64,000 nucleotides of DNA from Bryum argenteum (Eukaryota > Streptophyta > Bryopsida > Bryales > Bryaceae): assembly GCA_037043015.1 (NCBI GenBank), contig CM073321.1, positions 43,668,420-43,732,419 on the forward strand. The letters run 5' to 3'. Below the pieces are notes generated by a model. It was not told the origin of the DNA and searched no databases. It was given only the letters and a program-made list of their open reading frames with translations. This document shows, piece by piece, positions 1 to 63,220 of the stretch; position 1 is the stretch's first letter; the number at the start of each line of letters is the position of its first letter. Position numbers and translations under genes: made by a program.

Positions 1-25
1 GCGCATGTGCTAATAAAGACTATTA

Positions 26-652
26 ATCAACTCGACTCGAGTTGAATCTATAAAATACGATAAGTGTTATCAGTGTACATATTCAACTCGACTCAAGTTG
101 AATTACTGTAGTGCATAATAAAGCAGAAAAATAATCCAACTGGAATCGAGTTGAAATAGGAAGGAACTTATAATAATTTCATGCAGTTTAAAGAGATCTA
201 TAATATTCAACTCGAGTCGAGTTGAATTATTCGATGATAGAAATTACTTAAAACAGAATGAGTATTCATTGGGCTGAAAACTGACATGACAAACTCAACT
301 AGAGTAATGCACAATCCTCTGACTGAAATTGACAAAATACATGGGTTGATACGAACACCTTGATTAGAGTTGAAATGATGAACGTTCAGTCTCAGCATTA
401 ATTCAACTCGCGTCGAGTTGAAAGTAACTAAGTGCTGTATTAAGAAACAACAAAACGCCATGATGGATACTTTCAACTCGAATCGAGTTGAATCCCACTT
501 CCTTGATAATGATGATCGTAGACTAACAGATAGAGATAGAATGCAATTTCAACTCGACTCGAGTTGAATAAAACTTACTTGGACAGTTGCTACCGATAAT
601 AGTAGACTATCAGAGAAAATTTGAAAGCTATTTCAACTCGACTCGAGTTGAA
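26..652. repeat. Palindrome array upstream of copy A
   Basis: Eight palindromes of the form TTCAACTCGA, one base, TCGAGTTGAA start at 26, 82, 135, 206, 402, 472, 548 and 632. Those at 206, 472, 548 and 632 are perfect; the others carry one or two mismatches. The centre base varies (C, G, A). Spacing is 53-84 bp except for one 196-bp gap, where a decayed half site (about 292-305) can be seen. The block lies directly 5' of the first coding exon of copy A, and its left edge is cut by the window start. Confidence 0.9.
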
Positions 653-709
653 TACTAATCCTTGCAATTCGTATATATAAATACTAAGTTTGCTTCTCTT
701 TCTCATTAG

Positions 710-2137
710 GAGAAAATCCCAAGGAGAGGCTCTCAGCCTTCTTCAGTCTATATGTTCATGTAAAAGATAGCGAGGTCGCAGATCCCGAAATATTTGGGGA
801 CATGTGGGTGCACAGAGAGCCTGCGGATGTCGAATGGTGGAGTATGCTCCTCACACCGCACACGAACAAGCTGGCTGTCGTCACCAAGTACAAGGGAGCA
901 GAGTGAAACCTTCCTGTGAATTTGAAGGAGAACATCATTGATGTCGTCGTCTTCAACACGCATTGGATTTGCGTGACGTGCATCGTGGACGACCCCATTG
1001 AGGACACGACTGTGGACCAAGACTACAGGTTCACTTACATGATCGACACAACGAAGATGGATTTCGACATTTGGGCACATGTGGAGAGTATAAAAAATAC
1101 TCCTTACGAACCCTTGGCGAAGAATGTCGAGCAACACATTCGCGAGTTTCGATTCACAACAGAACTCAGTGACCAGCAGCGACCAAGTATTCTCGCGCCT
1201 TGTCTCCGATCACTCGTCACTGCCATGGTGAACTTCAAGGCGAAGCTGCAACACAAGAAGATGCAAATGACGCCCCTTCGTCTGACGCAGGAAGTAAGCA
1301 TGCAAAGCGGCAGCCACGAGTCCATCCTATATCAGACTCCTGAGGCGACGGGATCAAAGAGGCGCAAGGCAAATCCGTCCACAGCTCAGCGGGGGCCGAC
1401 ACAAAAGAAGCTCAAATCAGTCACGACGAAGAAGTCGACCGTGGCCGACGCCACTAAGATGGAACAGGCGAGCTTAGTATCGGCCTTGACGGAAGTACCC
1501 ATCGACAATGTAGACAAAGTTGTCGATTACAAGGAGTCCATGAATGCCTTCAAGAACTACTGGGGGCTTTGCCAAGACTCATACATCTTCGGCTAAGATG
1601 TGACTTACGAGATTCCAATCGAGCGTCTCTTTACCCCCCCTTGTGGACTTGAACATCCGAAACCTCGAGCAGGAGAAAGTCAAGCACACGATGCATTTCC
1701 TGATTGAGATGTCCGATAAGAGCAAGAAGAACACCCTCTGCGTCTACCCAAAGGATCAGCTCGTTTAACCCCGATATTGGGAGGAGATAAAGGACGGGGA
1801 GTTCTACATGGTCAACGGACAACATTGCGTCGAGGCATCCAAGCAGTTGCAAAACCGGCTCGATGTAGATGCTAGCATCAGGGATGCATTCAAGACATGG
1901 GACTGCTTCGTGGTATGGAATGAAGATAAGCCCATCATTCGGAGAATCTCCGCGTTCTACAACAGGGTCAACCATTTCATGAATACAAATCCGACGCGGG
2001 CGACAAACATCATCATGGCGCGGGAGCTATGCAAAAGCCTCGGTAGACCGGAGAATCCAAAGGAGGCTCTTGAAGTTGGCAGGACCGTCACACAGAGGCC
2101 CAACAAGGGCAAGAAACCTGCAAAGGACAATTTCAAC
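710..2137 (+). pseudogene. Copy A ORF1: ParB/sulfiredoxin-like protein, decayed
   Basis: The reading frame opens after a splice-acceptor-like TCATTAG at 703-709 and ends at a GTATGT donor at 2138. The region at about 1808-2110 encodes VNGQHCVEASKQL, which resembles the ParB/Srx box (G-x-[HR]-[RH]-x-x-A) and matches copy B (IIDGQHHVEAAKQL). Conserved blocks around it, such as KNYWGLCQDSYIFG and ATNIIMARELCKSLGRP, also align with copy B. The ORF is broken by TGA at 904-906, TAA at 1594-1596, a frame change near the run of seven C at 1634-1640, and TAA at 1766-1768. ParB domains bind CTP and palindromic DNA and Srx-type folds bind nucleotides; whether this one does either is inference. The middle part (about 1250-1480) is basic and low in complexity. 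Confidence 0.7.
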
Positions 2138-2285
2138 GTATGTGTACCTCCATTCAACTCGATTCGAGTTGAATATTGTCCTACACTACTAACGATGATT
2201 TTTAGATTTCATTCCCGCTGTAACCTATTTCAACTCGACTCGAGTTAAATATCTAACTCAATATCATACTCGGTTGATACATGAG
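2138..2285 (+). other. Copy A intron with two palindromes
   Basis: The stretch starts with GTATGTG after the codons for KDNFN and ends with an AG at 2284-2285 before FMEAVRTRF. Palindromes lie at 2153-2173 (perfect) and 2229-2249 (one mismatch). Copy B has an intron at the same protein position (60435-60571) that also contains one palindrome, of the copy B type. Confidence 0.7.
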
Positions 2286-3640
2286 TTCATGGAAGCTGTC
2301 AGGACTAGATTTGCTCTCATCGACGTCAAGAACGCCCAGAGAGCAGTGACAACTAGCAAGGCGGCCAGAGAGAATCTCAACATCCAAAATGAGCTAAAAA
2401 TCATCACTGCTCCAAATGATGTCTACGACGTCTGGTCTGAGCTTATCTCATCTGCATCCCAAGGGGAGCTCATCGACCCCGACACAGGAAGGAAGATGAA
2501 GGAGTTGGGGAAATGGAAGACTGATCATGGGCAGCTCACCAGGGAGTTCTTCAAATGGATCGGAAACTGTAGCTACGCCCAGATCAAGAGATTAGCCGAG
2601 CATATGCTGAACAGACCAAACCCAAAACGGCGACACCAGTACCCCAAAGTCACATTGAAGCAAATGAAGGGTGTGCTTGTAGATTGCTACAGCTCTTACG
2701 ACTGGCTGGAGCGCTGCAAGACGAAGACCATCGTGAAGCGCGTGATTCACAGCATGCGCCCTGACTTAATGCTGTTCAGCACGAGTGGGGACTTCAGGAA
2801 GGAGAGCTGAAAGAAATTCAAGACCGATTTTAAGATCACTCCAGCTACACTGAACGTTCTCATCACGAATCCCGGAGAATCCTTCTTCACGCTAGCGAAA
2901 TTCCCCAGCAACAAGAACAAGTCCTTTGAGCAACTCTTGCCGTATGCAACAGAGTTCTTCAGATGCTTCCTCGCCAACAAGGGGAAGCTCCAAGGGGCGA
3001 AACAAACCTCAGGGCCTACAACCTGGAGGACGATGTTCTAGGGGAATGGCAGGATGACTCTTGGAATGAACAGTCCGCTAAGAGAATCAAGGTCGGAATA
3101 ATGGACTTCCGTAATATCCCCGGAGCATAGGAGGAATCAGCGTCATCCAGCTCGTCAGCAGGCTCCTACTTCTACAACGTCCTCCAAGTCCTAAAGTCTA
3201 TTACGGACCCCGTGGTAACTGAAATCCCCGTTTGGGTTTGGATCTGCGGAAGTAAGGATGCTGAGGCGAAAATCAAGAATCACCTCGATAGTTGCGAGTT
3301 CGGAGCAAACTACAAAATAGAGTATGCGGAATACATTCCGGCTCCTTACGAGCGACTCGAGGATCAAACCTCGTCGAAGGCAAGGGCCAAGGATCATGTC
3401 CAGATCCTCTTCTTGTTTCGAAAATTTCAGAAGTTGAGGATTTTGAATCTCCCCAAGTTCTTCCAGGCCCCCGACACTCCACAGTTCAAGATCTGCGGGA
3501 GATACAACGAGCTCAAGTACCGTATTTATAATACGGAATTGAGGATGGAGTTCTACCTGAAGCTGCTTGATATCTTCTGCAAGGAAGGGGATGCGATCCT
3601 CAGTGTTTTTGGAGGCGGAAAGCTCTACTGTGCGGCCTGG
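2286..3640 (+). pseudogene. Copy A ORF2: unknown conserved protein, decayed
   Basis: I do not recognise this protein. It aligns with copy B 59093-60434 and with fragment C at 8.6-8.9 kb. Shared blocks include LI-DPDTG, TREFFKWIGN (copy B NREFFKGMGQ), YPKV near the middle, and NTELRMEFY-KLLDIF near the end (copy B DTELQLEFYRRVLKMF). Breaks are TGA at 2808-2810, a frame change near 3010, and TAG at 3128-3130; reading resumes each time in a frame that still matches copy B. The exon ends with codons for CAAW before GTAAGG at 3641. The frame is mildly charged, with no signal peptide or membrane segment seen. Confidence 0.65.
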
Positions 3641-4049
3641 GTAAGGATATCCTATGTATTTCAACTCGATTCGAGTTGAATAGTTCGCTATGACTCTGTT
3701 GCTTGCTATGCTAGTTGTATTTAAGTCGAGTCGAGTTCAGTGCGCACCTTAGTGAACAGGGATCGTTTTACACTAAGTTGAATTCTATTCAACTCGACTC
3801 GAGTTGAATGGATTACTATGTATGCTACGAAATCATGTTCTTGCATGCGTTATTATATTTAACTCGACTCAAGTTAAATTTGGTGTTTGATGGCACTTAG
3901 AGTTTATATTTGGTATTCAACTCGACTCGAGTTGAATGCACACAGCAGAGTAGTCTGGTTGTGCTCTCACACGCCACCTCCATTTCAACTCGATTCCAGT
4001 TAAACTTTCATATGATTGCCGTTGCATCTCTTGATGTGTCTACTTGCAG
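3641..4049 (+). other. Copy A intron with six palindromes
   Basis: The intron runs from GTAAGG to CTTGCAG. Palindromes lie at 3660-3680, 3720-3740 (degenerate), 3789-3809, 3858-3878, 3916-3936 and 3984-4004 (degenerate). The site at 3858 carries symmetric changes in its outer arms (TTTAACTCGA with a matching AAGTTAAA end), so pairing is largely kept. The matching intron of copy B (58778-59092) also carries six palindromes. Confidence 0.75.
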
Positions 4050-5003
4050 ATGTGTTCGCTGATGAATTACACAATCAGCTCCAGCGAAGAGCACGACGAA
4101 GTTGTCAGACTTTCCTTGAATGTCTTCAACTTGGATAGTCGAGATTTCGAAGAAGGGTACCCGATCGAGGAGGCTTCCTTATCCATGGAGAGACTGGAAG
4201 CACCACCACCCCCCACGAAGACAGAGAAGGGGAAGGGGAAGAAGAAGGTCAGGAGAGTAGAGTTACCACTTGACGTGCATAACCCAAGACCGAACGCAAT
4301 CGAGTCAAGTGATGACAATGATGATCCTGTCCAGGATGTTGAGGCCTACGGTTCCCAACACCCGGTAACGCCCCAAACTGGACGAGGCTCATCTTCTCAT
4401 CTTCCTCATCCCCAGGAACAAGGCTACTCGGATACCTCTCTTCGGGCTTCCACGCCATCGCCTCAGAAGAGGAAAAGGGAGTCTTTATCTGTTGAAACTC
4501 TGATGGAGAAACTCGTCAGAATGCAGGAGGAAGCGCAGACGCGACAAAGGGTGGATATTGAAGCAATGCTTGCTCAAGAGCGCGAGGAACGCAGAGCCCA
4601 GAGACAGGAGGATGAGCAACAATGGAAGTTTATGTTGACAGAGGCCTTTGCGAGAATGCCTGAGATGGTAGTCCAAGCAATGTCGCACCTGAATGCAAAG
4701 CCTCTCCTCTCCATCGAACCAAGTCATAGTGAACCTCTGCTCCTGACCCACGGGCCCACTCAATCTTCCGACAGTGGTGCAGCTCGACATGCATCTCCCG
4801 GACGTTCCCTCCAAGGCACGCCTTCTCAGTCGACTGCAGCTCCCTCACCTGCGGGCAACATCGCTCAAGTTGTTTCTAGGGATCAAGGCCCATCAAGTTG
4901 CTCCACACCATCGGACCCAGTCGAGTCGGAACAGAAGGCCGTGGATGAGGAAGAGCAGATAGGAACACAGGATCAGACTCTCGATCGGAACGTTACCGAA
5001 TAA
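4050..5003 (+). CDS. Copy A ORF3: Lys-rich and coiled-coil protein
   Basis: The exon begins at ATG right after the acceptor AG at 4048-4049. Copy B starts the matching exon the same way (ATGTGC at 58777). The N-terminus shares C-x(3)-Y-x-IS-S-x-E with copy B, followed by a GKGKKK basic stretch. A Ser/Pro/acidic linker follows, then a strong heptad-like Glu/Arg/Gln-rich coiled coil at about residues 150-215 (with REERRAQRQEDEQQ), then a Ser/Pro-rich tail. TAA at 5001-5003 closes the frame, but a splice donor just before it (GTTACC at 4991) is possible, since copy B splices out after its coiled coil. Function unknown; a multimerising or scaffold part is a guess. Confidence 0.6.
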   Translation: MCSLMNYTISSSEEHDEVVRLSLNVFNLDSRDFEEGYPIEEASLSMERLEAPPPPTKTEKGKGKKKVRRVELPLDVHNPRPNAIESSDDNDDPVQDVEAYGSQHPVTPQTGRGSSSHLPHPQEQGYSDTSLRASTPSPQKRKRESLSVETLMEKLVRMQEEAQTRQRVDIEAMLAQEREERRAQRQEDEQQWKFMLTEAFARMPEMVVQAMSHLNAKPLLSIEPSHSEPLLLTHGPTQSSDSGAARHASPGRSLQGTPSQSTAAPSPAGNIAQVVSRDQGPSSCSTPSDPVESEQKAVDEEEQIGTQDQTLDRNVTE

Positions 5004-5030
5004 GGTTGAACTCCACGATCTAGTCTTTCA

Positions 5031-5051
5031 TTTAACTCAACTCGAGTTGAA
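5031..5051. repeat. Copy A palindrome downstream of coiled-coil exon
   Basis: The arm TTTAACTCAA is followed by C and TCGAGTTGAA, so there are two arm mismatches. It lies between the coiled-coil exon and the next likely exon at 5259. Confidence 0.7.
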
Positions 5052-5258
5052 TTTCTCCTTCGGTTAATGGAAGTTCGCGTGTAGAAGCCTTCGACAGTTG
5101 TTGATAGACTAGTATATATTCCTCTAGGACAGTTTTGTTAGATTGGATTTGGTGTTCATCGTGTAAATACTTTTTGTATATGACGCTCATTTTTGAACGC
5201 AGAGTTTGGAATACAATCATATTTTCTTACAAATTTTCTCCCTCTGATATCTACGCAG

Positions 5259-5488
5259 GCTCTATTGATTCGCGAAGTATTCCGAATGTTTGTGTGTCTC
5301 ATAACGTCCCCCCTATGGAAGACACTAGTCCTTTGAGTCCGTTTCATGGTGAGCCAAGTAACACGCCGCAAGATGATCACAATGAAGGTCACATTCCGGA
5401 TTCAATCCTACTCGAGGTTCACATTCCTCTTCCATCCTCGACCGCTGTACAAGATTCACAAACAGCTGAAACTCAATCAAAGACGCCG
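5259..5488 (+). CDS. Copy A linker exon, Ser/Pro-rich
   Basis: The exon is bounded by CTACGCAG at 5251-5258 and GTAAGC at 5489. It encodes a Ser/Pro/His-rich, acidic stretch (with PPMEDTSPLSPFHGEPSN) and no recognised domain. It probably joins the coiled-coil exon to the FCP1-like exon. The equivalent part of copy B (about 55440-55640, PTHDS repeats) is also Ser/Thr/Pro-rich. Confidence 0.45.
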
Positions 5489-5655
5489 GTAAGCTGCTCC
5501 TTTTCCAAAATCTCATTCAATCCTTTCTTTATTAGTTCGGTGTGATCGCATTGTTTGGATTTGGGATTTCTTAGTGCTATAGAAATGGTCAGTCTCGAAA
5601 TGTGGCAGTGCAATACTTAACTGTATACACATTTGTCTGCCCCGCTTCTGAACAG

Positions 5656-6450
5656 GGGATGAGTCATTCGCACAGTCCGGTAGTTGCAGCCGTGGAGGAT
5701 ATCCCTCGTTCTATTCCTTCAAGGGTGCCATGCAAGTGGCTCAATGTCATCCTGGACTTGAACGGTATCCTCTGTGTCTGCAAGGAGAAGGGATTCATGC
5801 CAAAGAACCAAGTTTACAACATGGTCGCGAGTGCACATTCCTCTGTCCTACCCGCTCCGATTGGTCCCAAGGCTGTTTTCGTTCGGCCCTTCTGCCTTGA
5901 TTTCCTTCGTGAGTTGAGTGAAGTTGCATACGTCTCCGTATGGAGTTCGATGGTTCATGGGACCACGAAGTCCATATGTGACTACTTGTTCTGGGGTGTG
6001 CCATCTCCGTGCCTTGTTTGGGGGCAGAACTCATGTGAAGTTGTCAAGGTTCGTGGACCGCGGAATAAGTTGTCCAACTTCAAGTTGAAGGGGACTAATA
6101 AGGATCTCTTCCTCAAACCACTGCATATGCTTTTCAATGGTCTAAACTCAAAGTTTAATGAGCATGACACGATCATCATCGACAATAGCCGTGAGAAGCA
6201 CGTCGTGAATGAACCAGAGAATGTCGTACTGCCAGTCTCGTGGTCAGAGCATGATGTATCTGATAGATTCTTGGTGGACGAGCTCCTCCCTTGGATTCAA
6301 CGGCTACATCAAAGCCGCGGTCAGGGCTTCTTGTCTTCCCGTAGGGAAGACAATATTGGGCGTAGAATGCTCTCTAAAGAGCTCGATACTTCAGAATACA
6401 AAGAGCTTAATAACGCCGTAGAGGCTTCTAGGAAGCTAGTGCTTGATTAG
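5656..6450 (+). CDS. Copy A ORF4: FCP1/NIF-like HAD phosphatase fold
   Basis: The exon starts after CTGAACAG and ends at TAG 6448-6450. Encoded motifs appear in the FCP1/HAD order: WLNVILDLNGILC (motif I), VFVRPFCLDFLREL, VSVWSS, a Lys-rich KLSNFKLKG region, TIIIDNS, and NVVLPVSW near the end. FCP1/NIF enzymes use the first Asp of DxDx(T/V) as nucleophile; here the second Asp is Asn (DLNG), so catalysis is doubtful. The open frame is intact for about 265 residues. Copy B has the same domain at 54261-54926 with ELDG. The role in the element is unknown; plant FCP1-like proteins usually act on phosphoproteins, but that should not be assumed here. Confidence 0.65.
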   Translation, partial: GMSHSHSPVVAAVEDIPRSIPSRVPCKWLNVILDLNGILCVCKEKGFMPKNQVYNMVASAHSSVLPAPIGPKAVFVRPFCLDFLRELSEVAYVSVWSSMVHGTTKSICDYLFWGVPSPCLVWGQNSCEVVKVRGPRNKLSNFKLKGTNKDLFLKPLHMLFNGLNSKFNEHDTIIIDNSREKHVVNEPENVVLPVSWSEHDVSDRFLVDELLPWIQRLHQSRGQGFLSSRREDNIGRRMLSKELDTSEYKELNNAVEASRKLVLD

Positions 6451-6707
6451 GCTAGTTAACCAAGATTGGTCTGACCAGACATGATTCAAATTTGTCATGT
6501 ATATTGTGTAGAATATAATAAATGATTTCAGTATTAATGTCTCCTTTCGGACTGATTTCATGGCTTGTGTCCGACCTTTTATTTTATCGTAGTATTTGAT
6601 GGTGCTAGTTCTCTCAGCATGGATTTAACTCGAGTCAAGCTGATTTGGCTATATCATATTGCATATCATCCTTGTTGATGATTCCCCTAAAATGAATTCG
6701 TATCCAA

Positions 6708-7619
6708 GTGTCCAATTCCGTCTCGGTTTCGGACAATGATTTTGATTTCCGTTGCGCTGCTTCTGCTGGTTCGATTTTGGACTACGGACAATACTCAATT
6801 TCGCAGAGTGGAATGGGCCACATAATGTACTCAGCAGCTATTGCACAATCAACTATGGACTACTCGACAATGGCAATTGATGATGGTGTTGGGGATAGTC
6901 CTCCTTTTGGCGGTAAGCGACCACACTCTGCAAGTTCTCCTTCCCCGCTGAAGAACCGTACCATAGTAGACGAATCAAGTCGAGGTGGCGCTCCGCAAAG
7001 AAAGCTTTACGATGATTCTGAGTTAGTTGAGGATGCACTTCCGGTACAGGTATGACATACTTGAAGCAGTTCATTTATGAGTTTTTCTTAGTTTTTAACT
7101 TCAATCGTAGTTTGATTTAATTACATTTATCTATGTCTTTTCATGCACTTAGGCGACAACTGCAGCAGTCGTGCCCATACCAGTCATTTTCGAGTCCCCG
7201 GCTCTTCGTTTATCACCTCATAAGGCATCGTCGCTAAAAATATCTTGTGGTTCATGACCCATTCTCTCTCTACGCTTTGTCCATTGAAGTGTTTGGAGCC
7301 AACAGCAGAACTTGGAGACTGCGGGACGGAACTAATGGGGCCACCTAATCCGTCTGTTGCCTACGCTGTTGATACCTCGAGTTTGCGCTTCCGTACTATG
7401 CGCCCGCCATTACACGAGGGTCACCGCCAGACTCAGTCACACGATGGATTTCAGTCCAGAGTTAGTTGTCCTCCAGTTCGCGATGCATTGGAGCAACGGA
7501 TTTTGAAGCTTCAGCGACGTGTAAATTCAAGTTCGTGTTCGTCACCATACACAAGCTACAGTCGTGGACCAGAAGTGTGGAAGGCAGTAGCTGAAATTCG
7601 AAGCCGTTCGCACTTGTGA
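6708..7619 (+). pseudogene. Copy A ORF5: unknown acidic and basic C-terminal protein
   Basis: An ATG at 6708 opens 114 codons to a CAG-GTATGA donor at 7049. An acceptor at 7151-7152 continues in frame to TGA at 7255-7257. A second frame, at about 7260-7619, encodes LEQRILKLQRRV and YSRGPEVWKAV and may be the true tail after a frameshift. Copy B 53250-54017 matches in both parts: IYFAPDNASAVDY and GVVDSPP there against IMYSAAIAQSTMDY and GVGDSPP here, then STEIHRLLRRRAP against LEQRILKLQRRV. I do not recognise a domain. Confidence 0.5.
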
Positions 7620-8600
7620 TACGGCAATAGTCTTGATATAATTTAGAGTACATCGATCGGTATGGTTCTTCATGGATAGCCCACATTCAACACCATACTG
7701 TATTGTTCTATTGGTATAGAACTATCGTATTTACCATCGTACATTCGTATCATTCATATGTAACTAGAGCCCACATATATATCTGGATGAGCATATTTCC
7801 TTTGACGTGGTCAATTCTTGTATACAATGTCTATAAATAAACATACATTCATGTATATTCCAGTCTGGCATACAATTATTCATCCATCTATATCTACTTT
7901 ATACCATTTTTTACAGACTATTTGTATTTTTATCATTACTTCTGGGCCTCAACAATACTCTCATTATTGAGGGATACTCTCAAATAATGAATATGGTGTT
8001 ACTTGGGATGCGTACGTTGTCTATGATAAGGAAGGCTCGGCTCACTGCCATCTCTACGCACTACAACATTACACATCCCCTTACCCATGTTCAACTGACA
8101 TTGGGGAGCCAGATTCAACCAGGGCGCATCATCAAGATCGACTGTGGACGTCCTTCAAATTCGTCAAACGAGTTTCAACGTCCATAACGCAAGCGTCTAT
8201 AACCCAAAAAGTTACAAGGTATTTCTGACAAATTCTTTCATTACTATCCTAGAATCAAAGATAATTTCCTCATGTCTATCGGGTCATTCCTCGTGTATGG
8301 CTAACTCATTACCATATTATCACCGTTCTGGGGAAAATTGCCAATTTGTCTTCGAACGTGTATTTAGTCTAGATTATCTAATTAGAATGTATCTTTGACC
8401 CTCAAACAACTTTCATTCGTTCCTTGACTATGTACGCTTGCCTAGAAAATTGGAATTGGAGTTCTCTCCGACCCGGTGATATTTCGATTAAATTTGCATT
8501 CCAGTCTGTATTTCCTCTCGAAGTTATTTCCGGTTCCGGGATAATTTATTCTTAAGCGTTCGTATATACTTTCTCAAAAACGGCCATTGTATTGACTACG
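7620..8600. other. AT-rich stretch without a supported gene
   Basis: Open frames here are short and have no recognisable motifs. The sequence is AT-rich with scattered ATATAT runs. Confidence 0.5.
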
Positions 8601-52900: not shown

Positions 52901-53249
52901 TGCTCTTCTAGACATTTTATACGACAACGTAACGAGTTTTAAGTCGATAAAGAGGTTCAAAGAGCATTTCATATTAGAAAACACGTAATTCGTTATAATG
53001 GGAATATATACTCATTTTGGTAATTAGGGAGACTTCCATTTAGATTGATTCTGACCTGATTAGTTACCAATTCACCAGGTTTTTTACTGATAATGATGAA
53101 TTTTCTCAATATAAAAGACAATAATAGCAAAGATTTCATAATGCAAGTTAAGAAATATGCTCCCCCAAGAGAAAATTTTATTCATATGAAAGCACAAATA
53201 CAATTTATTGGTGTAATTGTAGACCTCCAACAGGTAGGCACTATATTAT

Positions 53250-54017
53250 CTACCAATTACGACGTGGCGGAGAGGAGGTATCACCAGAAGTATCATTCTT
53301 AGTGAATCGAGGGTCCTCACTACGTGTGTATTTAGAGAAGGCAGGTTCGTCCATCTCCATAAGCCCACCACTTCTACAACGCTTCGGTGCACGTCTCCGT
53401 AATAGACGGTGAATCTCAGTCGAAAACCGTGTTGGATGAACGCGAGTGTTTGCCCCAAGAGATAAGAAGCAATGAGCCACAGTATTTGGCAAGGAACTAT
53501 TTGACTCGAATCGAGCTAAATAGGCACGGGCGTCGACGACGGGATTGCGTAATACAGCTTCACCTTGGGGTGCCGCTGCAACCGAGGTCATCACACCGAT
53601 TCGATCATTTCCGGTTGCAATAATTGGTTGAATCTCAATAGGGGGACTGTCTACTACACCATCATCGTCATTATCCATGTCCTCCTTTGTGTAGTCTACA
53701 GCCGACGCATTGTCCGGAGCAAAGTAGATTAGCCGTCCCCGCATTCGTTCTGAGAAAGTTCTGGAGTTGTCACTTGTAATGAAAGCCTCTGAAACGGTCG
53801 AAGGACCAAATACAAGATTTGCTTGCAAAGCACATGATGAATGTGGAGAGAGCTGACGTCCAACAGTAGCAACCTGGTTCATAAACACAGCCATTTTAGC
53901 AAGTGAGTCCAAGACACTAAGTGCAATGAAAAAGGTACACAATATAAGAACGCATTTAATCATGTATGTCGAGGGTGGATTCACCAATCGATCTACATTA
54001 TATCTGGATCTAAGCAA
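53250..54017 (-). CDS. Copy B ORF5: unknown C-terminal protein
   Basis: The frame has LIYFAPDNASAVDYTKED, GVVDSPPIEIQP, and a basic RLLRRRAPKRCRSGG near the end. Short matches to copy A 6708-7619 (see there) support homology. A hydrophobic stretch near residues 22-45 could be a membrane segment or noncoding. A degenerate palindrome at 53500-53520 (TTTGACTCGA, A, TCGAGCTAAA) lies inside it. No domain recognised. Confidence 0.45.
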   Translation of the reverse strand: MLRSRYNVDRLVNPPSTYMIKCVLILCTFFIALSVLDSLAKMAVFMNQVATVGRQLSPHSSCALQANLVFGPSTVSEAFITSDNSRTFSERMRGRLIYFAPDNASAVDYTKEDMDNDDDGVVDSPPIEIQPIIATGNDRIGVMTSVAAAPQGEAVLRNPVVDARAYLARFESNSSLPNTVAHCFLSLGANTRVHPTRFSTEIHRLLRRRAPKRCRSGGLMEMDEPAFSKYTRSEDPRFTKNDTSGDTSSPPRRNW

Positions 54018-54260
54018 CCGATAAACATAAGCTTTCTAGGGTAAAAACCAGAATAATACCACTGATAAAAGAATTCAAGGCAAATTCTTCCCACTGATTC
54101 GGTCCTGATTCCACAAATATGGAAGATTAAGGCTCAAGAGCATATACAACTCTGAGTCCTTCGACAGTTCATTATGCGTGGGTCTACGATGGCGCATAGT
54201 CTCGGCAAAATTCTCAGGACCGTTCAAATGCACGGAAAGACATATCTCGCCTATCCTCTT

Positions 54261-54926
54261 CTATAAGTCGGACTTTGGATCCTCCGGACAGGAATGGTTC
54301 CACGGAATATTGAAAAGTGTGTTCTTTGTGGGAACCGCAATGCAAGTGTCAGGCTTGGAATCCACAATGAGCAAATTATCGTCATTAAAATTGGCACCCT
54401 TCCTAGGATGCAACCGCCGTCGAGGATATTTTAAGAGGATGGGATTTGTCGTGCCGGGATACTTGGCGAATGCGTAATTCCTCAACAACAGATTATCGCA
54501 TTGGTTGGAAGCCAAGACAAGTCCAGGGGCAGTGTCTGACTTCGAGAACAAAAAGGAGCAGAGTCCATGGACAACCTTAGGCTCTTGGGTACTCCAGACG
54601 TGGATATGGCTAAACAAATTTAGTAAGCGAAGGAACCCGGTCAACCCGGGACGACAGTAGACGACCCTGCCGGCAACTAAAGTTGGGACGGTGGAGGAAA
54701 ACACCGGAGGATTATTGGGATCCGGAAAAGACAAACACTCTGCAGGCGTTGGGGTAGACACAAAGGCCATCGAACATAGAACCCCGTCCAACTCCAACAT
54801 CCCATTCAACCACTTGGGCTTGGACCGTAAAAGACTGCGGGAGATATGCGTAATGGGTAGCTCGGGCGAGATACGCTGTTTGGGATGTTTGGGCGGTCCT
54901 GCCTGCAGTGAGGGAACACCTAACAA
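54261..54926 (-). CDS. Copy B ORF4: FCP1/NIF-like HAD phosphatase fold
   Basis: Motifs follow in FCP1/HAD order: WLNGMLELDGVLC (motif I), VVYCRPGLTGFLRLL, IHVWST, a Lys/Arg-rich ILLKYPRRRLHP, NLLIVDSKPD and NIPWNH near the end. The nucleophile Asp is Glu (ELDG), so the site is altered in a different way from copy A (DLNG). The acceptor is near 54921 or upstream. The frame is open for about 220 residues. Its place after the Ser/Pro-rich exon is the same as in copy A. Confidence 0.6.
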   Translation of the reverse strand: MLGVPSLQAGPPKHPKQRISPELPITHISRSLLRSKPKWLNGMLELDGVLCSMAFVSTPTPAECLSFPDPNNPPVFSSTVPTLVAGRVVYCRPGLTGFLRLLNLFSHIHVWSTQEPKVVHGLCSFLFSKSDTAPGLVLASNQCDNLLLRNYAFAKYPGTTNPILLKYPRRRLHPRKGANFNDDNLLIVDSKPDTCIAVPTKNTLFNIPWNHSCPEDPKSDL

Positions 54927-55438
54927 TGGAAAATGGTATTAAAACAAGAGCGTGTGTACCTTGCAAAATACTGAAGTATGCAAAGAACTGCCAGCACTGA
55001 TTGGGTATTGAACCGCAACACCCAGAGGTTACATAAGGTGGTTGGTGGGGAATTTTGAAGCAATCGGACGGAACAAGGTATTCAGAAGGGGGGCTTGGTA
55101 GAAAAGGATGATGTTTAGGGCCTTGTGATGAGAAGGACGCAGACTCACTGAAGACGATAAGTGATGTGATATAAAAGAGTCTCAATTTTATTGAATGATG
55201 TTTCAATAAGTACAACGATTATAAGTGTACTATGTACAAAAAGCGAAACAGCATCCAATAATTTGGAGACTACTCGTCGACCTACTCGCCGCCATCGGTG
55301 CCGGACTCCTGTCAAACAAGGAGCGCCGGCTTTAAGATTACTAACTGTGAAAACTTCAAGACATGAGGGAATAGCAGAGCAACTGCCATCACCATCAACG
55401 ATCACAAAGACAAAGAGAAGGAAAGGATAGTAACTAAC

Positions 55439-56269
55439 CTCTGGATTTACCAGTGAAGTTATAGCCGTCTCAGTTGCAGCCACGGGAGAGTCATGGGTAG
55501 GAGGAACTTCGGTAGCAGCCACGGAAGAGTCATGGGTAGGAGCAACTTCTGCATGCTCCCCCAATGCGACAGCAGAGGTGTGATGGGTCGGCAATGGCGC
55601 TGCCTCAATCGGGACTTCATCCTCTTTTGCCGGCTTCTCCGAAATCTCGAGGGGTATGGGGCGGGGTGCAATCTCTGGTTCAGCAACAATAGGAGGTTGT
55701 GGAGGCGCGACGATGGGAGGTTGTGGAGGCGCGACGATGGGAGGTTGTGGAGGCGCGACGATGGCTGGTGGACTCGCGTCACAGATGCTGAGGCGAGGTT
55801 GATCGGGGTTGATGGAGGCAATGGGTTTAGGATAACTAGGCAGTTGGGATAAGATATTTCCCAATGATTGAAACATCTGCTCCATCTTGCCTAGTGCCAT
55901 GCGGGTTTCAGACTGAGAGCTCAGGAATGTGGACTCCAATCTGTCAACTCGAGCATTCGCAGCTGCGATGTCTGCTAACCTTTGCCTCTCTCTCTCCGCT
56001 TCTTCCTCTGCCTTGCGAGCCTTCAGCGCCTCCTTCTCTTGCCGCTTCTGTGCTCGCTTCTGATCCTTCGTGAGCATGGGGGCGACAACTTCTAGTTTCA
56101 CTGGTGGTTGTGAAGGCTCTCCTTCTTCCCTGAGCAGAGGCACGACATGGAGAAGAGGATCATCCTCAGCCCTCAAAGGCTTTGGAGAACTAGGCTCCTC
56201 CGAGAAGTCGTAATACCGGATTTCTATAGTATCCTCCGGCTCGTCCTCGGGCTTCCAAACACCTTTCAC
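55439..56269 (-). CDS. Copy B ORF3: coiled-coil protein exon
   Basis: The frame has KRAQKRQEKEALKARKAEEE as a strong coiled coil at about residues 70-105, then SETRMALGKMEQMFQSLGNI, three tandem copies of APPQPPIV (24-bp units at 55690-55765), and PTHDS repeats. It ends at a GTTAGT donor (55438). The coiled coil corresponds to the QEREERRAQRQED region of copy A. The N-terminal part (EDEPEDTIEIRYYDFSEE) has no clear copy A match. Confidence 0.55.
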
Positions 56270-56294
56270 GAACCATTTGTCGTACTTCCCCTTC

Positions 56295-57134
56295 TCAATC
56301 TGCCTCCTGGGTGCGCTCTGCGGGCCTTGGGGAGGAGGCCGCCAAAGTAGTCTCCTCCTGGGATGGATCAGGAGCCACCTCGTCGACTAAGGTCATGGCC
56401 GCGAGATCAGCATCATCAACTTGGTCATCGTCGTCCCCGTCGCCATCGCTCGAACCGTCAACATCGTCATTGTCTGACGAGTCAGAGCTGTCGGATGATG
56501 ATGCATCCCGTGGCACACGCTCTTGCCCAGGTTCTACATCGTCTTCGCCAAAGAGATCCCGGTAGATGCGATCGTTCGAGTTCTTTGAACGAACCTCCCT
56601 TCGAAACCCCGGGGGTGGAACCCTGTGCTGAACCGGAGTCCCAGCGGCCCCAAGATCGACGACCCCAGGAGACTGCTGGTTTAGCTCGACTCGAGCTAAA
56701 TCCTCCTCCGATGGTCGACCACGACGCAAGCGCTGGAGGGGTGGGCTCTCAATGTCCCCGACGACATTGCAGGCGCCATAGTTGGCTTCGAGCGCCGTCT
56801 GTGCTTGAGGCACAGTAGCGCCTGGACCGAGAAGCCTCTCCAGCTCGCGCCTCAGAAGAAGAACGCTTGGTAGATTCGCGCGGAGGGGCGCGTGCTGTAC
56901 CGCGGCCATGAGACGCAGAAGACCGAGCTCGACCGCTTCCACGACCCTGAGGGGGAGCACGAGCAGTACCACAACCACGAGGGGGAGCACGAGCGTTACT
57001 GGACGGAATTGCTACCGCAGCCCAGTCAATTGCGGGAGGAGACACGAGAGGAACAGCTGAATCCATGGGGGAATTCTTCCCCGCCGGAGAAGAAGGACCA
57101 CCTTTGTGAACCCAAAAACCACCATGAGGTGGCA
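56295..57134 (-). CDS. Copy B acidic and Arg/Gly/Ala-rich ORFs, uncertain
   Basis: Two overlapping frames read in sequence: 57134 downwards with MPPHGGFWVHKGG and RGRG/ARAPPR repeats, then 56295-56760 with SPPLQRLRRGRPSEEDLA, SNDRIYRDLFGEDDVEPGQ and a long acidic tail (DGDGDDDDQVDD). A perfect palindrome (56680-56700) sits inside the second frame. There is no copy A equivalent, so this may be an inserted or lost part. It could also be a gag-like ORF of another element; I cannot decide. Confidence 0.35.
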
Positions 57135-57139
57135 TTTGG

Positions 57140-58510
57140 TCACAAGGGGTTTTGAAGAGCAAGATTAGATGAGAAAACAAGAGGGGAAAAAGGAGGACAA
57201 GAAGAAGACAAGGAAATAGGGAAGAAGAAGAAGAGAACCACCGGCTGGATGGCTTGGAAGTGGTCTCTACTCTTTTGATTGCCATTCCTTCGTCTTAGGT
57301 CCAAATGGGGCGTGCCATAGCTTTTTGGAAAGCTAAGCTCAATGTGCACCCGTCCCTAAAATCTCAAAGGCAGAAGATCAACGAGCTAAGACTGATTGCT
57401 GTTTGACTGTGGCGGTTTTTGCCACTGCCGGGGGAAAACTTTTTCAACACCCCGACTTTGGAAGCTCATATCTCCCTCTCTACAACTCGGAATTGAGCAT
57501 GCTTTATACCATTGGAAAGCTCTACTGGAGCTCTATCTAGTGTAGAAATCTCAGAGGAGTTGAAGAAAAATCGAGTGAGTTATGGGGGAAACAATCTGGC
57601 TGGCTTTCATAGGGCAAGAATAAGCTCTTATCTTAATAACAAAGGAACTCAATAAGGACGAGGAAGATGAGTGAGGCAAGACAAGCATTTTGAGAAGGGC
57701 TCTCCTTCTCCTAACTACTAACAATTCAAGAAAGATGATCAAGATGAACAAAGAGGAAAAGGAGGCCCATGGCCTTCCTCCTCCTAACTACATAGATGGA
57801 TAGGTAGGTGAACAAAATGGAGGAGAAGGAGGCCCAAGGCCTTCCTTCTCCTACTCTAACCTAAACTAAGAGGAAATGGAAGAGATGAAGATAGCTTGGA
57901 AACAAGCTATTAAGTACCAAATGGGAGCCGCCAAAGAGGCGGCTCACCATAACCCTAACTAAGGCCTAAGCCCTAACTAAGGCATGGATGAATGACCGCC
58001 ACTCCACGCGCTCCGTCCTTGAAGCCTCCATCCTATCAACGACTTCATCAATGGATGTAGCTCCCACATGCTACCACAAGGTTAGATGAATGAATCTCTC
58101 AACAACCAAATTTCAAACACAACAAGGACATCAAAGACTACTTGTACAAGGCCCATGGTAAATTTCTAACCCAACTCCAAGTCCCTAATTCTTACGCTAA
58201 TCAAACCAAGGATCCACTAGGGGGCTTTTTACCTCCTCTAGTCCTTCCTTATCGAACCAAGGATCCACTAGGGGGCTTTTTACCTCCTCTAGTCCTTCCT
58301 TATCGAGCCAATCACTCCTAATCTAAACTAAGCTCAAAATTGATGCTAAATAATCTACCAAAGGCCTTGCGACAACTAATCTTTAATATACCTATTGCAT
58401 TCAAAACTCAATTATCATAAATTCATCAAATTACCTCAAGATGTCATGGTTTGCAAACAATTTATTAATAAAAATCCATTATTAGTAACACTTAAGCAAA
58501 AGAGAGCTTA
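57140..58510. other. Copy B long intron or insertion
   Basis: The stretch between the exon ending at 58512 and the acidic ORF has no convincing coding frame. A 51-bp unit starting AACCAAGGATCC is tandemly duplicated at 58204-58254 and 58255-58305. Confidence 0.45.
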
Positions 58511-58511
58511 C

Positions 58512-58777
58512 ACGCTCTCACAACCTTCATCTTCACGCTCGTGCTCCGAAGCAGAAGAGTCGTCGCTTACAGGCTGGGTGGACTTCTTCTTCGACTTCCT
58601 CTTCTTTCCCTTCCCCGACCCTTCAGCAGAAGGCTTGGGACCACGATTAGCTTCCGGATTTACGTATGCTGCGACGTTGATATCGTTGTAGTCCAGATGT
58701 TGGTAGTCCGTTGCAGCATTTGTATAAGCCTCCTTCTCAGTCTCGCTGATAACAACATATGTCTCAGCCTGGCACAT
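58512..58777 (-). CDS. Copy B exon: start of ORF3 with Lys-rich stretch
   Basis: The exon starts ATGTGCC right after AAACAG (acceptor at 58778-58779) and ends at GTAAGC (58511). It encodes MCQAETYVVISETEKEA, EGSGKGKKRKSKKKS and an acidic Ser-rich end. It matches the start of the copy A exon at 4050 (MCSLMNYTISSSEEHDE, EKGKGKKK). Confidence 0.6.
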
Positions 58778-59092
58778 CTGTTTTAGAAGGAGACGAAACT
58801 TATAAGAAGACTAAGAAGAATTAGCTCGACTCAAGCTAAAAGGCCATGGACAAAATACAAATTGTAGAGATTTAAGCATGAGACCGTTTAGCTCGACTCG
58901 AGCTAAACGAGCATGAGACCGTTTAGCTCGACTCGAGCTAAACGAGCATGAGACCGTTTAGCTCGATTCGAGCTAAACAAGCAGGAGACCGTTTAGCTCG
59001 AATCGAGCTAAACATGCATGAGAGTGTTTAGCTCGAGTTGAGCTAAACGAGCATGAGCAGTTCCAATTGAAGGAATGGTGCGAGGTACTTAC
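58778..59092 (-). other. Copy B intron with six palindromes
   Basis: On the - strand it runs from GTAAGT to AAACAG. A site at 58820-58840 is followed by five sites at 58887, 58922, 58957, 58992 and 59027, exactly 35 bp apart, each with the flank AACGAGCATGAGACCG or near it. All are of the TTTAGCTCGA type. The copy A intron at the same position (3641-4049) has six TTCAACTCGA-type sites. Confidence 0.8.
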
Positions 59093-60434
59093 AATTCCAG
59101 CCAACAGTGGCTTTGTGCCACCCATAATCGATAAAAACTTCCCTCCCGAAGATGAGAACATCTTCAACACCCGACGATAGAACTCCAATTGCAGCTCGGT
59201 GTCACTAAGACCAAGGTCGTGTTCTCTGTACGCGCCGGGCTTCGAGTAGAGGGGCAACTCTGGAGCGTAGAATACAGAGGGTATCGCATCCAACACACTC
59301 TGAGCATGGCTGCTCTTCTTGACAAGGAAGAGGAGGGGGAGCACGTGCTTCTCTGAAGTTTTTCCCTCTGCAATGCCGTTGAAACGCTCGTTCTTTGGTC
59401 GGCATGTAGTTGGCTGCCTTGTGAGAGTACTCGTCCTTCAACTTCTTGTCGAAGTAAACCACTGCCTGGCAGTGACGGTCGACGTTGGAGGTGATGAACA
59501 TCCAAACCTCGGGATTCTTGATGTGAGGATCGGTCACGGTGTCTGCCCACACATCAAGGAATTCTTGGAAGTATGGACTCTCCGTGTCGTCCACTCTACT
59601 TCCACTCCCTGGAACAGCTCGCAAATCAATCAAGCCTAAATCACACTTGCTAGATTGGTTCCAGGCGTAGTTCTTGTCCCAAATCCCGAATTTGAATTCG
59701 GAAGAGTAAAAGAGCCGCGTGTAAACAATTGGTGCAGGAGGTTCAAATGTCCCTTTGACATCGAGCAACTTCTTGAAGAACTCGGCTGCATATTCCGAAA
59801 TCTCTGCTGCACTCCTATTCTTCGTCTGCTTTTGGCGGTAGAGGGTGAAGAACGAGTCGCCCGGGACCGAGAGAAGCATGGACATAGTCTGACGAGTCAG
59901 ATTGTATTCCACCTTAAATTTCCTCGAGTTGTCGACGTCGAAGTGCCACTCGGAGTCGAACAAACCGAGCGAGGGCTTGAGGTTGTGCAATTCCCTCGCG
60001 ATAGTGTTCTTCCTCTTCCGATTCTCGACCCACTGCTTTGCACTCATACAGTGGAAGTATTTCTTCGCAGGCTTCCTCACGGCGACCTTTGGGTAGGGCA
60101 ACGTTCGATCCGGAGTCTCGTTCAGCAAGTGCTGCGCCAACACCTCGAGGTTCTCCGTGTCTAACTGCCCCATTCCCTTGAAGAACTCCCTGTTCAAGGT
60201 GAACTTCTTTGAGGCGGTTTCCCAATCTTTCGCCTGATTGAATGGGAGCTCGGTGTCGGGGTTGATCAGCTCTCCAAGACTATAGTCTGTGATAAACCTC
60301 TTCTACAACTCGTAGACGTTGTCCGGAGATGTGATGATGAGGAGCTCGTTGCGAAGGTCGGACGGTCTGACGATCTTGTCCTTCACGTTATTGTTGATGC
60401 TGATGAACCTCTTCACCATAGCAGCCGCGAATGC
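59093..60434 (-). pseudogene. Copy B ORF2: unknown conserved protein, decayed
   Basis: The exon runs from an AG acceptor (60435-60436) to a GTAAGT donor (59092). It encodes VKRFISINNNVKDKIV, LINPDTE, NREFFKGMGQ, YPKVAVRKPAKKYF, PGDSFFTLYRQ, AAEFFKKLLDVKG, DLRAVPGSGSRV and DTELQLEFYRRVLKMF, matching copy A ORF2 throughout. TAG at 60303-60305 falls where copies A and C have Trp (A: DVWSEL; C: YAWSEK). A frame change is needed near 59390, where reading shifts from KERAF to NGIAEGKTSEKHVLPLLFLV. Unknown function. Confidence 0.65.
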
Positions 60435-60571
60435 CTGCACCAAAGCCAAACGATTAAGAAACAACCTATGCTGTTTTAGCTCGAGTCGAGCTAAAACGAC
60501 ATCCCCAAAAACGTCGACAGAGAATGCAAACAACGCCAACCAGAAAAAGAAAAGAACAAGTAATCTCATAC
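60435..60571 (-). other. Copy B intron with one palindrome
   Basis: On the - strand it runs from GTATGA to GGTGCAG and holds a perfect palindrome at 60475-60495 (TTTAGCTCGA type). The position matches the copy A intron 2138-2285. Confidence 0.75.
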
Positions 60572-61870
60572 CTCATAACGCTTCCGGTTATCTACTTCAA
60601 CCGGTCTTTCACGTCGATGCGGCTTCTTCAGTTTTTGAGGGCGGCCATAGTCTTCCCAAACCTTTCTGGCGCCCATGATGTTCGTTGCCCATGAAGGTAT
60701 GAATGTCCCAGCATTGTTCGTCTTGTTGGCCATGGCCGACACGTCGAGAATCTTGCTAATGTCAAAATGCCACACAACATGGGCTTTCCGTGTATGAAGG
60801 GCAAGGATCTTCGAGTCGTCGATCTTCTTGTCACGAATCAACTGTTTCGCAGCCTCAACGTGGTGCTGCCCGTCGATAATTCGGAACCGACAAGATTGGA
60901 CCAGATCTTCCCAATGCCACATCTCAGGCTCATCTTTAATCTTCGGCATAATGATAATGGTTTGCCTGGAAGTAACATCGAGGGAATTCATCAAGATGTT
61001 CTTGTAATGCGCTATGCCGGCCGGTTCCAGAGATCGCACGATAAACCTTGGTTCGGCAGGGTCGAGCATGTCGATCGATACGTCAAGCGGATTGTCACGA
61101 CCGAAGACATAACACTCTGCACAGTTGTCCCAATAGTCCTTCAGAGACTTTGTCGCTTCTTCATACTTGATCTCCTTCTCCGAGACAGCCACGTTCATTG
61201 TAGGGTTCATGAACGTAAGTGCGCTGCCGGAGGATTTGCTCCTCTTGGAGCCAGAGCTGGATGAGATCGGGTTTGGCCGCTTCGTTCCCTGTACGCCTAG
61301 ACTTCCCTCTGGAGTGCCTAGACCCGACGGAGCATTCTCGGATGGAGCCTGCAACAGTAGACTCCCGGACCGTTTCATCGAAGCCTTGCCTTTTTTCTTT
61401 GCAGTCTCGAAATCAGATAGAGCCTTCCAGATCTGCGTAGTGTATGGAATGTACGATCTGACGAAGGCTTTCGGCGAAAACACATTAGGCTGCAATCTCG
61501 TGTCGATATGAAGAAGCTGAGTAGGATCGACCTTCTCGACCATATAGTTGCGGATGAAGTCGTGGGAGAAAAGGACTTCATTGGCGGGAAATACAATAGT
61601 GAAGACGAAACCTTCGACCTCCACTGCTTCGAACTTGATCAGGAGGAATTCGTCTTCATAAGTAACAAGTTCGATGAAGGTATCAAGACACAGAGGCAAA
61701 AATGCCCCGTGAGACCCCGATTGTTGATAGAAGAAGAAATGGGTCTTGTTCATCAGACGAATCGACCAAAACTTGATGGAATTTGTCTTGGGGGTCCACA
61801 ACCTCCCCCATTGCGGTCCACAGCAATAGCTGCAAGCGGATCGTCTGGTGCTTCGAGTTGAACTGGTGCA
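60572..61870 (-). CDS. Copy B ORF1: ParB/sulfiredoxin-like protein
   Basis: The largest open frame is 60572-61801 (about 410 codons). It encodes VFSPKAFVRSYIPYTTQIW, a Ser/Lys-rich nuclear-signal-like region (GSKRSKSSGS), KYEEATKSLKDYWDNCAECY, IVRSLEPAGIAHYKNILMNS, then CRFRIIDGQHHVEAAKQLI, the ParB/Srx-like box, then VVWHFDISKILDVSAMA and ATNIMGARKVWEDYGRP. Copy A ORF1 aligns over these blocks. An upstream frame (61683-61871) may be an exon or reflect a frameshift. The frame through the ParB-like part is open, unlike in copy A. ParB-family proteins recognise palindromic parS sites, and this one lies next to palindromes; a link is inference. Confidence 0.65.
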
Positions 61871-61933
61871 AGGAATCCCTCCAGGGCTTGCATGTTATAA
61901 GTGACCTGTGAATAACAAAATAACCGAAAGCGA

Positions 61934-61954
61934 ATTAGCTCGATTCGAGCTAAA
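61934..61954. repeat. Copy B palindrome near the ORF1 start
   Basis: ATTAGCTCGA, T, TCGAGCTAAA: one arm mismatch. It lies between the coding start and the large array. Confidence 0.85.
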
Positions 61955-62223
61955 TGAACACAACAGATGGGAACATCGATATGAAGTGGAGTATTACTTG
62001 AGAAACAGACTCTTGCTGCTCCACTTCCATGTCGATTTCAGGCTCGGCAGGTGCATTCGCAGCCATCTGAATAATTCTGGCAGTTTGTTTGGTTCTCGGC
62101 ATCACTGTCATTCAAAAAATGAGAATCACAATGCAAGATTCACAGGGGCAGTAGAACATCGTCATTATCTTGACGATCAAACCGGAAAGAACTTTAACAT
62201 GTTTAGATTAAGTGGCGAGATCA

Positions 62224-63104
62224 TTTAGCTCGAGTCGAGCTAAATGGGGTTAACCTGCAACAGGGCAGTAAGCCCATTTAGCTCGACTCGAGCTAAATGG
62301 TCACGGACCTCAAACAAGGTCGGGCCCATTTAGCTCGAGTCGAGCTAAATGGGCTTGACCTGCTACAGGGCAGTAAGCCCATTTAGCTGGACTCGAGCTA
62401 AATGGGCTTACTGCTCTGATTCAGAGTAGGCCCATTTAGCTCGACTCGAGCTAAATGGGCTTGACATCGTATAAGGTCCGTGACCATTTAGCTCGAGTCG
62501 AGCTAAATGGGCTTGACATCGTATAAGGTCCGTGACCATTTAGCTCGAGTCGAGCTAAATGGGCTTGCCCTGCCACAGTGCAGTAAGCCCATTTAGTTCG
62601 ATTCGAGCTAAATGAGCTTACAGCTCTGACTTAGTGCAAGCCCATTTAGCTCGACTCGAGCTAAATGAGCCTAACCTCGTATGAGGTCCGTGACCATTTA
62701 GCTCGAGTCGAGCTAAATGGGCTTGCCCTACCACAGTGCAGTCACGGACCTCATTCGATATCAGGCCTATTTAGCTCGAGTCGAGCTAAATGGTCACGGA
62801 CCTCATGCAATGTCAGGCCCACTTAGCTCGAGCCGAGCTAAATGGGCTTACCTTAAATCAGAGCAGTAAGCCCATTTAGCTCGACTCGAGCTAAATGGGT
62901 CTGACCTTGTTTGAGGTCCGTGACCATATAGCTCGAGTCGAGCTAAATGGGCTTCACCTGCCACACAGCAGAAAGCCCATTTAGCTCGAATCGAGCTAAA
63001 TGGTCACGTACCTCAAACAAGGTCAGGCCCATTTAGCTCGAGTCGAGCTAAATGGTCACGTACCTCAAACAAGGTCAGGCCCATTTAGCTCGGCTCGAGC
63101 TAAA
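62224..63104. repeat. Phased palindrome array upstream of copy B
   Basis: Seventeen sites of TTTAGCTCGA, one base, TCGAGCTAAA start at 62224, 62277, 62329, 62382, 62435, 62487, 62539, 62592, 62645, 62697, 62770, 62822, 62875, 62927, 62980, 63032 and 63084. Spacing is 52 or 53 bp except once 73 bp. Spacers of 31-32 bp begin and end with short inverted words (TGGGC/GCCCA or TGG/CCA) and come in both orientations: TCACGGACCTCAAACAAGGTC and its reverse complement both occur. Confidence 0.95.
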
Positions 63105-63152
63105 TGGGCTTGGTGGTCTTGGAGAATTAAATACTTTAATGAAGCTAACTTG

Positions 63153-63220
63153 GCATCGAGCTAAATGGGCATCGAGCTAAATGGGCATCGAGCTAAATGA
63201 GCACCGAGCTAAATGAGCTG
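63153..63220. repeat. Half-site tandem repeat beyond the array
   Basis: Four units of about 17 bp, each CATCGAGCTAAATGGG or CACCGAGCTAAATGAG. Each unit holds only the right half of the palindrome. Confidence 0.85.

Follow-up and report, generated by a model that had tools for sequence, protein, structure and literature searches.

The 64,000-nucleotide stretch of the moss Bryum argenteum analyzed here (hereafter the window) lies on contig CM073321.1 (C1) of assembly GCA_037043015.1, at positions 43,668,420 to 43,732,419, and carries at its two ends, in opposite orientation, parts of two copies (A and B) of a large DNA transposon. Both copies are dotted with short palindromes. The arms of the palindromes differ between the copies and, on C1, arm type follows the group of an element gene, open reading frame 1 (ORF1), whose product is a candidate binder of these sites.

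Two copies of a large DNA transposon

The window holds only the right half of each copy, and the halves outside it were read from flanking C1 DNA. Copy A extends in full from C1:43658466 to window position 8000 (17,954 bp) and copy B from window position 52980 to C1:43741691 (20,293 bp). A preliminary description of the window had placed the two copies at 26-7619 and 63220-53250; the inverted pair stands, but its extents do not, as the window cuts both elements. Both copies are large DNA transposons with inverted repeats and 4-bp target duplications. The seven copies with both ends visible are 15 to 21 kb long and carry, with minor variation, the same inverted repeat at both ends (AACACCATATTCATTATTTTGAGAGT in family A and AACACGTAATTCGTTATAATGGGAATAT in family B). 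Target duplications are exact in six of the seven (ACTT, TACA, TTAA, AGAA, CAAG, and TACA); the seventh, copy A6.77, is flanked by TAAC and TAAT. Across the genome, ends with at most 3 mismatches number 193 for family A and 1214 for family B (control, 0 each).

The element has a DUF7869 gene on one side and, in the opposite direction, ORF1, a coiled-coil-like gene, an FCP1-like gene, and a last gene (Table 1). DUF7869 (PF25273) was recognized by Pfam in copies L028 (E = 5.9e−23) and L013 and was assigned by similarity in copies A and B of the window; no Mutator family was found by Pfam in the frames scanned. A search with the copy B DUF7869 protein retrieved 167 relatives. The longest among the 120 matches listed have 935 to 986 amino acids, and two mosses, Ceratodon purpureus and Physcomitrium patens, are represented in the list by DUF7869 proteins (45 to 54% identity). 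Given its gene position and its conserved acidic motifs (HDKMDHA, VQxDNA, and VGHTHxDID), the DUF7869 protein is presumably the transposase. The presumed transposase and ORF1 of copy B, as well as ORF1 of copy A, are interrupted, and open ORF1 exon frames are present in copies elsewhere in the genome. We found no mention of DUF7869 in the literature searched and, judging by titles and abstract openings, no paper describing this element.

The possibility that A and B are near-identical inverted copies was ruled out, as their segments are only 25 to 53% alike in protein (about 25 to 37% for the ORF1 and FCP1-like segments and 39 to 53% for the presumed transposase). At this level of protein similarity, the two copies represent two divergent families.

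Three further observations concern copies elsewhere. Exact family A inverted-repeat ends are concentrated on C1 (68 of 95), though C1 makes up 17% of the assembly; a guess would be that C1 is a repeat-rich chromosome, perhaps a sex chromosome. C1 also carries two A copies (L013-L014 and L015-L016) at a distance of 0.3 Mb from each other, which match at about 97% along the greater part of their sequence; because their target duplications differ (TACA and TTAA), they are separate insertions. A pair of inverted-repeat ends like those of family B, spaced about 165 bp apart at locus L030 (8912-9077), is possibly a miniature non-autonomous derivative.

Table 1. Features of copies A and B, in window positions unless preceded by C1
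Feature	Position	Strand	Basis or remark
Copy A (family A), right half	1..8000	+	blastn to other copies; inverted repeat at both ends
Copy A, left half, with presumed transposase gene	C1:43658466-43668419		beyond the window
Right terminal inverted repeat, copy A	7976..8000	-	starts AACACCATATTC
4-bp target duplication ACTT, copy A	8001..8004		partner at C1:43658462-43658465
Upstream palindrome cluster, copy A	27..652		arms TTCAACTCGA
ORF1, copy A	916..3650	+	GQH-motif, helical, and predicted methyltransferase-fold segments; stops interrupt this copy
Palindromes, presumed intron between the two main ORF1 exons, copy A	2152..2249		frames and splice letters
Palindrome cluster, presumed intron after the predicted methyltransferase-fold exon, copy A	3660..4004		intron inferred from frames
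Charged, probably coiled-coil frame, copy A	4044..5003	+	by eye; best Pfam match Saf4_Yju2, E 2.7e-4, below cut-off
NIF/FCP1-like (HAD phosphatase family) gene, copy A	5602..6450	+	PF03031, E 1.4e-13; motif I is DLNG
Last frames, copy A	6696..7619	+	
4-bp target duplication AGAA, copy B	52976..52979		
Copy B (family B), right half	52980..64000	-	presumed transposase gene in the continuation to C1:43741691
Terminal inverted repeat, copy B	52980..53007	+	starts AACACGTAATTC
Last frame, copy B	53250..54017	-	
NIF/FCP1-like gene, copy B	54264..54938	-	PF03031, E 7.5e-05, above cut-off; motif I is ELDG
Charged, probably coiled-coil frame, copy B	55148..56386	-	by eye; no Pfam match near cut-off
Palindrome inside open frame, copy B	56680..56700		
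Palindrome array, presumed third ORF1 intron (~58778-59092), copy B	58885..59047		period 35; ends by eye
ORF1, copy B	59093..61801	-	IDGQHH segment 60566-61801, helical and predicted methyltransferase-fold segments; interrupted
Palindrome, presumed second ORF1 intron (~60435-60571), copy B	60473..60497		ends by eye
Palindrome, presumed first ORF1 intron (~61906-61997), copy B	61935..61953		ends by eye
Upstream palindrome array, copy B	62222..63109		arms TTTAGCTCGA; period ~52

Palindromes of the two copies

A scan of the window for palindromes with arms of at least 9 letters and a spacer of at most 3 recovered perfect palindromes, which are all of two kinds, both with one central base, except those at 6331, 30588, and 39062. 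The kind with TTCAACTCGA arms is found at 27-3937, the kind with TTTAGCTCGA arms at 56680-63109, and neither occurs between the copies. The palindrome is 21 bp long. Counted over the whole elements, copy A has 22 CTCGANTCGAG cores and copy B has 28, where a first-order Markov model predicts 0.01 and 0.02. The letters before CTCGA are AA on both arms in all 22 cores of copy A and AG on both arms in 27 of the 28 cores of copy B. The preliminary description was therefore accurate in that each copy has its own kind of palindrome, confined to that copy within the window, with arm changes kept symmetric. Across eleven elements (bounds partial or approximate for four, B1.30, A8.57, A0.32, and B1.05), which have 7 to 36 cores each, AA occupies both arms in 109 of the 114 cores of six A elements and AG in 114 of the 119 cores of five B or C elements, and random mixing of types within single copies is not seen. 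Two cores fell in the 9,076 bp counted as outside element B1.30, whose bounds are partial or approximate.

In addition to upstream regions and presumed introns, two copy B sites lie in open frames (the second is an imperfect palindrome at 53499), and hence the sites are not all noncoding. In copy B, tandem repeats make up the upstream array and the cluster in the third intron; no tandem array was detected in window 1-8000, where the copy A sites are dispersed.

In CACTA elements, family-specific short subterminal repeats are bound by an element protein, TNPA. The moss palindromes, which like the repeats of CACTA elements such as En/Spm are short and numerous in each element, could similarly serve transposition, with a transposase subunit gathering the ends, and the presumed transposase also differs between families. 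However, CACTA elements have subterminal sites, 3-bp duplications, and CACTA ends, whereas the moss element has internal sites, 4-bp duplications, and AACACC or AACACG ends. None of the 158 palindromes in seven elements lies within 500 bp of an element end, and many are in presumed introns and upstream arrays, which makes a role in transposition unlikely.

The palindromes are under constraint. Pooled over eleven pairs of copies, differences amount to 108/2061 in the arms, 96/2062 in the core, and 78/206 at the central base, in comparison to 2163/11291 in the flanking 40 nucleotides and 13280/135069 in the remaining, largely coding, element; the pairs are not independent, as copies recur in them, and an exact site was required just in the query copy. 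The arms are about four times less diverged than the flanks, and the center is the most variable. If the sites were neutral tandem repeats, homogenized within families by slippage and conversion, the frequent tandem arrays of B-type sites would be expected, but neither this divergence pattern, nor the dispersed sites of copy A, nor separate upstream and intron clusters with the same arm would follow, and we regard such an origin as highly improbable. Among cores with one mismatch, 35 of 65 are CpG transitions, which would fit methylated CpGs decaying in old copies.

Selection could also act on RNA hairpins in transcripts, as had been left open in the preliminary description alongside DNA binding. 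The sites are perfect inverted repeats, many of them in presumed introns. Yet G-U and A-C mismatches are almost equally frequent on the ORF1 strand in the right half (40:38) and in the left half, where the other strand is sense (17:15), a pattern that favors constraint on DNA over constraint on RNA. In addition, the loop would be a single base, and the upstream arrays are presumably outside transcripts. Of the two proposed constraints the one on DNA is favored, and we find that on hairpins hardly credible.

Between the two transposons, the window also contains retroelement frames (reverse transcriptase and RNase H; 36398-38229). A 20-bp unit is repeated in tandem at 52084-52281 (9.9 copies, 91% alike), and an Rfam scan of the window yielded 0 matches. 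Outside the window, C1 begins with N letters, and no telomere repeat is present in the 300 of 600 letters read at the end of C1 and the start of C2.

Arm type and ORF1 group

The copies of ORF1b in the genome fall into four groups (A, B, C, and D). We used two copy lists, one with A and C and the other with B and D, with groups assigned from identities. In a tree of 33 sequences, whose root is arbitrary and which carries a long-branch warning (B and D with P0047), the labeled rows of A, B, and C are each set apart by a branch (support 100/100, 100/99, and 100/100, respectively), D is the partner of B (100/100), and A is placed together with C and numerous metagenome relatives (94/91).

Six listed group D copies below 8.6 Mb have no nearby A-type site, and the one D copy inside the range of the B list has no B-type site; therefore, a D copy was inspected for an arm of its own. 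The copy fetched (L038) has TTTAGGT arms with the same 21-bp spacing. A relaxed D pattern occurs 370 times versus 12 for the reversed control, and the pattern with TCGANTCGA inside is found at 4 places.

To relate sites to groups, we used 50 A-type, 100 B-type, and 50 D-type listed sites and the copies on C1 within the range of each list. A-type sites are present within 5 kb of 8/8 listed A copies and of none of 22 B, 9 C, or 6 D copies. D-type sites are present within 5 kb of 6/6 D copies and of none of 6 A, 22 B, or 9 C copies. B-type sites accompany 2/2 B and 3/3 C copies at this distance, but 0/2 A and 0/1 D copies. Chance values of 5e−9 and 2e−7 would apply only if the copies were independent, which they are not, and we read the counts as complete separation of the A, D, and B/C types. 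Hybrid sites are rare (15 between A and B, versus 875 and 5878 non-hybrid sites, and 41 between B and D). On C1, arm type follows ORF1 group.

Two relatives also bear on arm types. In P0023 and P0029, frames running into the next intron seem to spell palindromes close to TTTAAGTCGA and TTCAGCTCGA, types that were read back from protein letters and are uncertain. P0029, a relative of ORF1, is a public protein labeled as from an uncultured Synechococcales cyanobacterium, and is probably plant DNA in a metagenome bin.

ORF1 as a candidate binder of the palindromes

In the structure model of the ORF1 exon, residues 235-451 have a methyltransferase fold in permuted order. This predicted fold is common to beta-class DNA methyltransferases and MT-A70 relatives (M.BceJIV, CcrM, MTA1, and METTL3-METTL14), but their catalytic DPPY motif and FxGxG loop are both replaced in ORF1. 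With motif IV located from the strand order of the structure model, DPPY is absent in 30/30 aligned ORF1 sequences, and D[FL]R is found in 29/29 with letters there; the glycine loop is GxK in 25/25 sequences with letters. An additional copy outside this alignment (L029) has DLQ at motif IV. Pfam gave a best E of 0.0072, to an unrelated family, for the 30 aligned members, and PDB sequence searches gave no significant match (arginine methyltransferase motif I at E = 0.22). The catalytically inactive partners METTL14 and MTA9 would be the nearest functional parallel.

At their center, A and B palindromes read GANTC, which CcrM-type adenine methyltransferases recognize. ORF1 could thus be catalytically active and mark the element by methylating DNA at this center, as CcrM would. 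Besides the loss of DPPY and the altered glycine loop, GANTC is present in just 3 of the 50 listed D-type sites and missing from the other 47, and we consider an active enzyme very unlikely. The joint occurrence of a GANTC center and a CcrM-like predicted fold is possibly a coincidence.

Upstream of the predicted fold, ORF1 has a segment with a GQH motif, which resembles the DGQHR/DndB motif. A GQH-motif exon before a methyltransferase fold, together with palindromic sites, is reminiscent of bacterial ParB-parS and of phage ParB-methyltransferase fusions (excerpt of PMC12704722). In a eukaryotic counterpart of that system, a ParB/DGQHR-like domain joined to a catalytically dead methyltransferase fold would load on the palindromes, spread, and shield its family, and arm and protein would change together. 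However, the segment has only weak DndB matches (E = 0.12 to 0.15), its structure model has a predicted local distance difference test score of 39, and a PDB profile search returned 0 hits. Its alignment members match no consistent family in Pfam, NCBIfam, or PADLOC (best E = 0.0046, in 1 of 18 members). Such a counterpart seems rather unlikely to us.

VANDAL elements of Arabidopsis are Mutator-like transposons. They carry family-specific motif arrays in upstream and intron tandem repeats, bound by the element-encoded VANC; the motif, YAGTATTAY, is arrayed in a single orientation and varies by subfamily, and the factor has been proposed to change with it (excerpt of PMC5735166). With this system already described, the preliminary view that the arrangement is without precedent does not hold. 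Such noncoding upstream and intron regions are also targeted by RNA-directed DNA methylation (excerpt of PMC10398659). The moss element is similar in its dense short motifs upstream and in introns (apart from the two copy B sites in open frames), in tandem-repeat turnover, and in having one type per family. It differs in its 21-bp palindromic motif, in a presumed DUF7869 transposase with 4-bp duplications, and in a candidate binder with a predicted methyltransferase fold. Sola2 elements share 4-bp duplications (AT-rich in Sola2) and inverted repeats (excerpt of PMC3627910), and a 4-bp length is not diagnostic.

Because VANC sites occupy similar places on VANDAL elements (introns and upstream regions, by subfamily), we favor a family-specific binder that opens genes. 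We hypothesize that the palindromes are DNA-level candidate sites for an element-encoded protein, which would act as a symmetric dimer with one subunit per arm. The binder, most likely ORF1, would recognize its own family at sites that lie, for the most part, in introns and upstream DNA of the genes that the element carries, and would keep these genes open or demethylated, like VANC for VANDAL elements. A shift in protein specificity would then shift the family's sites along with it. Binding by a protein, the role of ORF1 in it, and the anti-silencing effect are all inferred, and we give this proposal about an even chance. The element-encoded protein could instead be an activator or repressor that tunes only transcription of its own element, with no effect on chromatin silencing. 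The upstream and intron sites, their constraint, and their family specificity would be equally expected under such tuning; 7 to 36 sites per element, introns included, better fit a regional mark, and a protein with a predicted methyltransferase fold hints at chromatin or DNA modification. Neither point is decisive, and we regard tuning of transcription alone as possible, if doubtful.

Several observations weigh against a binder that changes with its sites. ORF1 has no recognized known DNA-binding domain, and the inner letters of group D palindromes are loose. Tandem expansion and conversion could homogenize sites within an element in the absence of a partner protein, though these processes alone would not spare the arms and free the center. 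The lists of ORF1b copies cover some of the candidates (128 of 881 and 150 of 824 were scored), and 39/100 B-type, 16/50 D-type, and 3/50 A-type sites have no listed copy within 20 kb; of the 39, 27 belong to the B1.05 element, in which an ORF1b copy is present. With 12/100 B-type sites then left, most listed sites are within 20 kb of a listed ORF1b or in an ORF1b-bearing element, and among these sites palindromes are not abundant far from ORF1. The nearest listed copy to one D-type site belongs to A, and that to another belongs to B. Moreover, B and C have a common arm type, yet the tree does not join them; therefore, TTTAGCTCGA would most simply be the ancestral arm, from which A and D would each have departed once. 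Kinship within groups reduces the association to two arm changes rather than 45 independent cases, and inheritance of the arm along with the element would yield the same association. The cognate protein-site pair put forward in the preliminary description consequently gains from the match of arm type to ORF1 group and the rarity of hybrids, but just two switches are involved, and shared descent would give the same result.

If a binder of this kind exists, sequence-specific self-recognition by transposons would have at least two origins in plants, with neither the transposons nor the motifs related to each other. If the ParB-parS-like reading were true, one genome would hold several non-cross-reacting self-recognition codes. 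The moss offers a case rich in tests, as in a single genome the proteins fall into four groups and the arms into three types with two apparent changes, and many copies have open ORF1 exon frames. A DNA transposon that encodes a protein with a predicted methyltransferase fold but no catalytic motif may represent a link between host methylation and transposon counter-defense.

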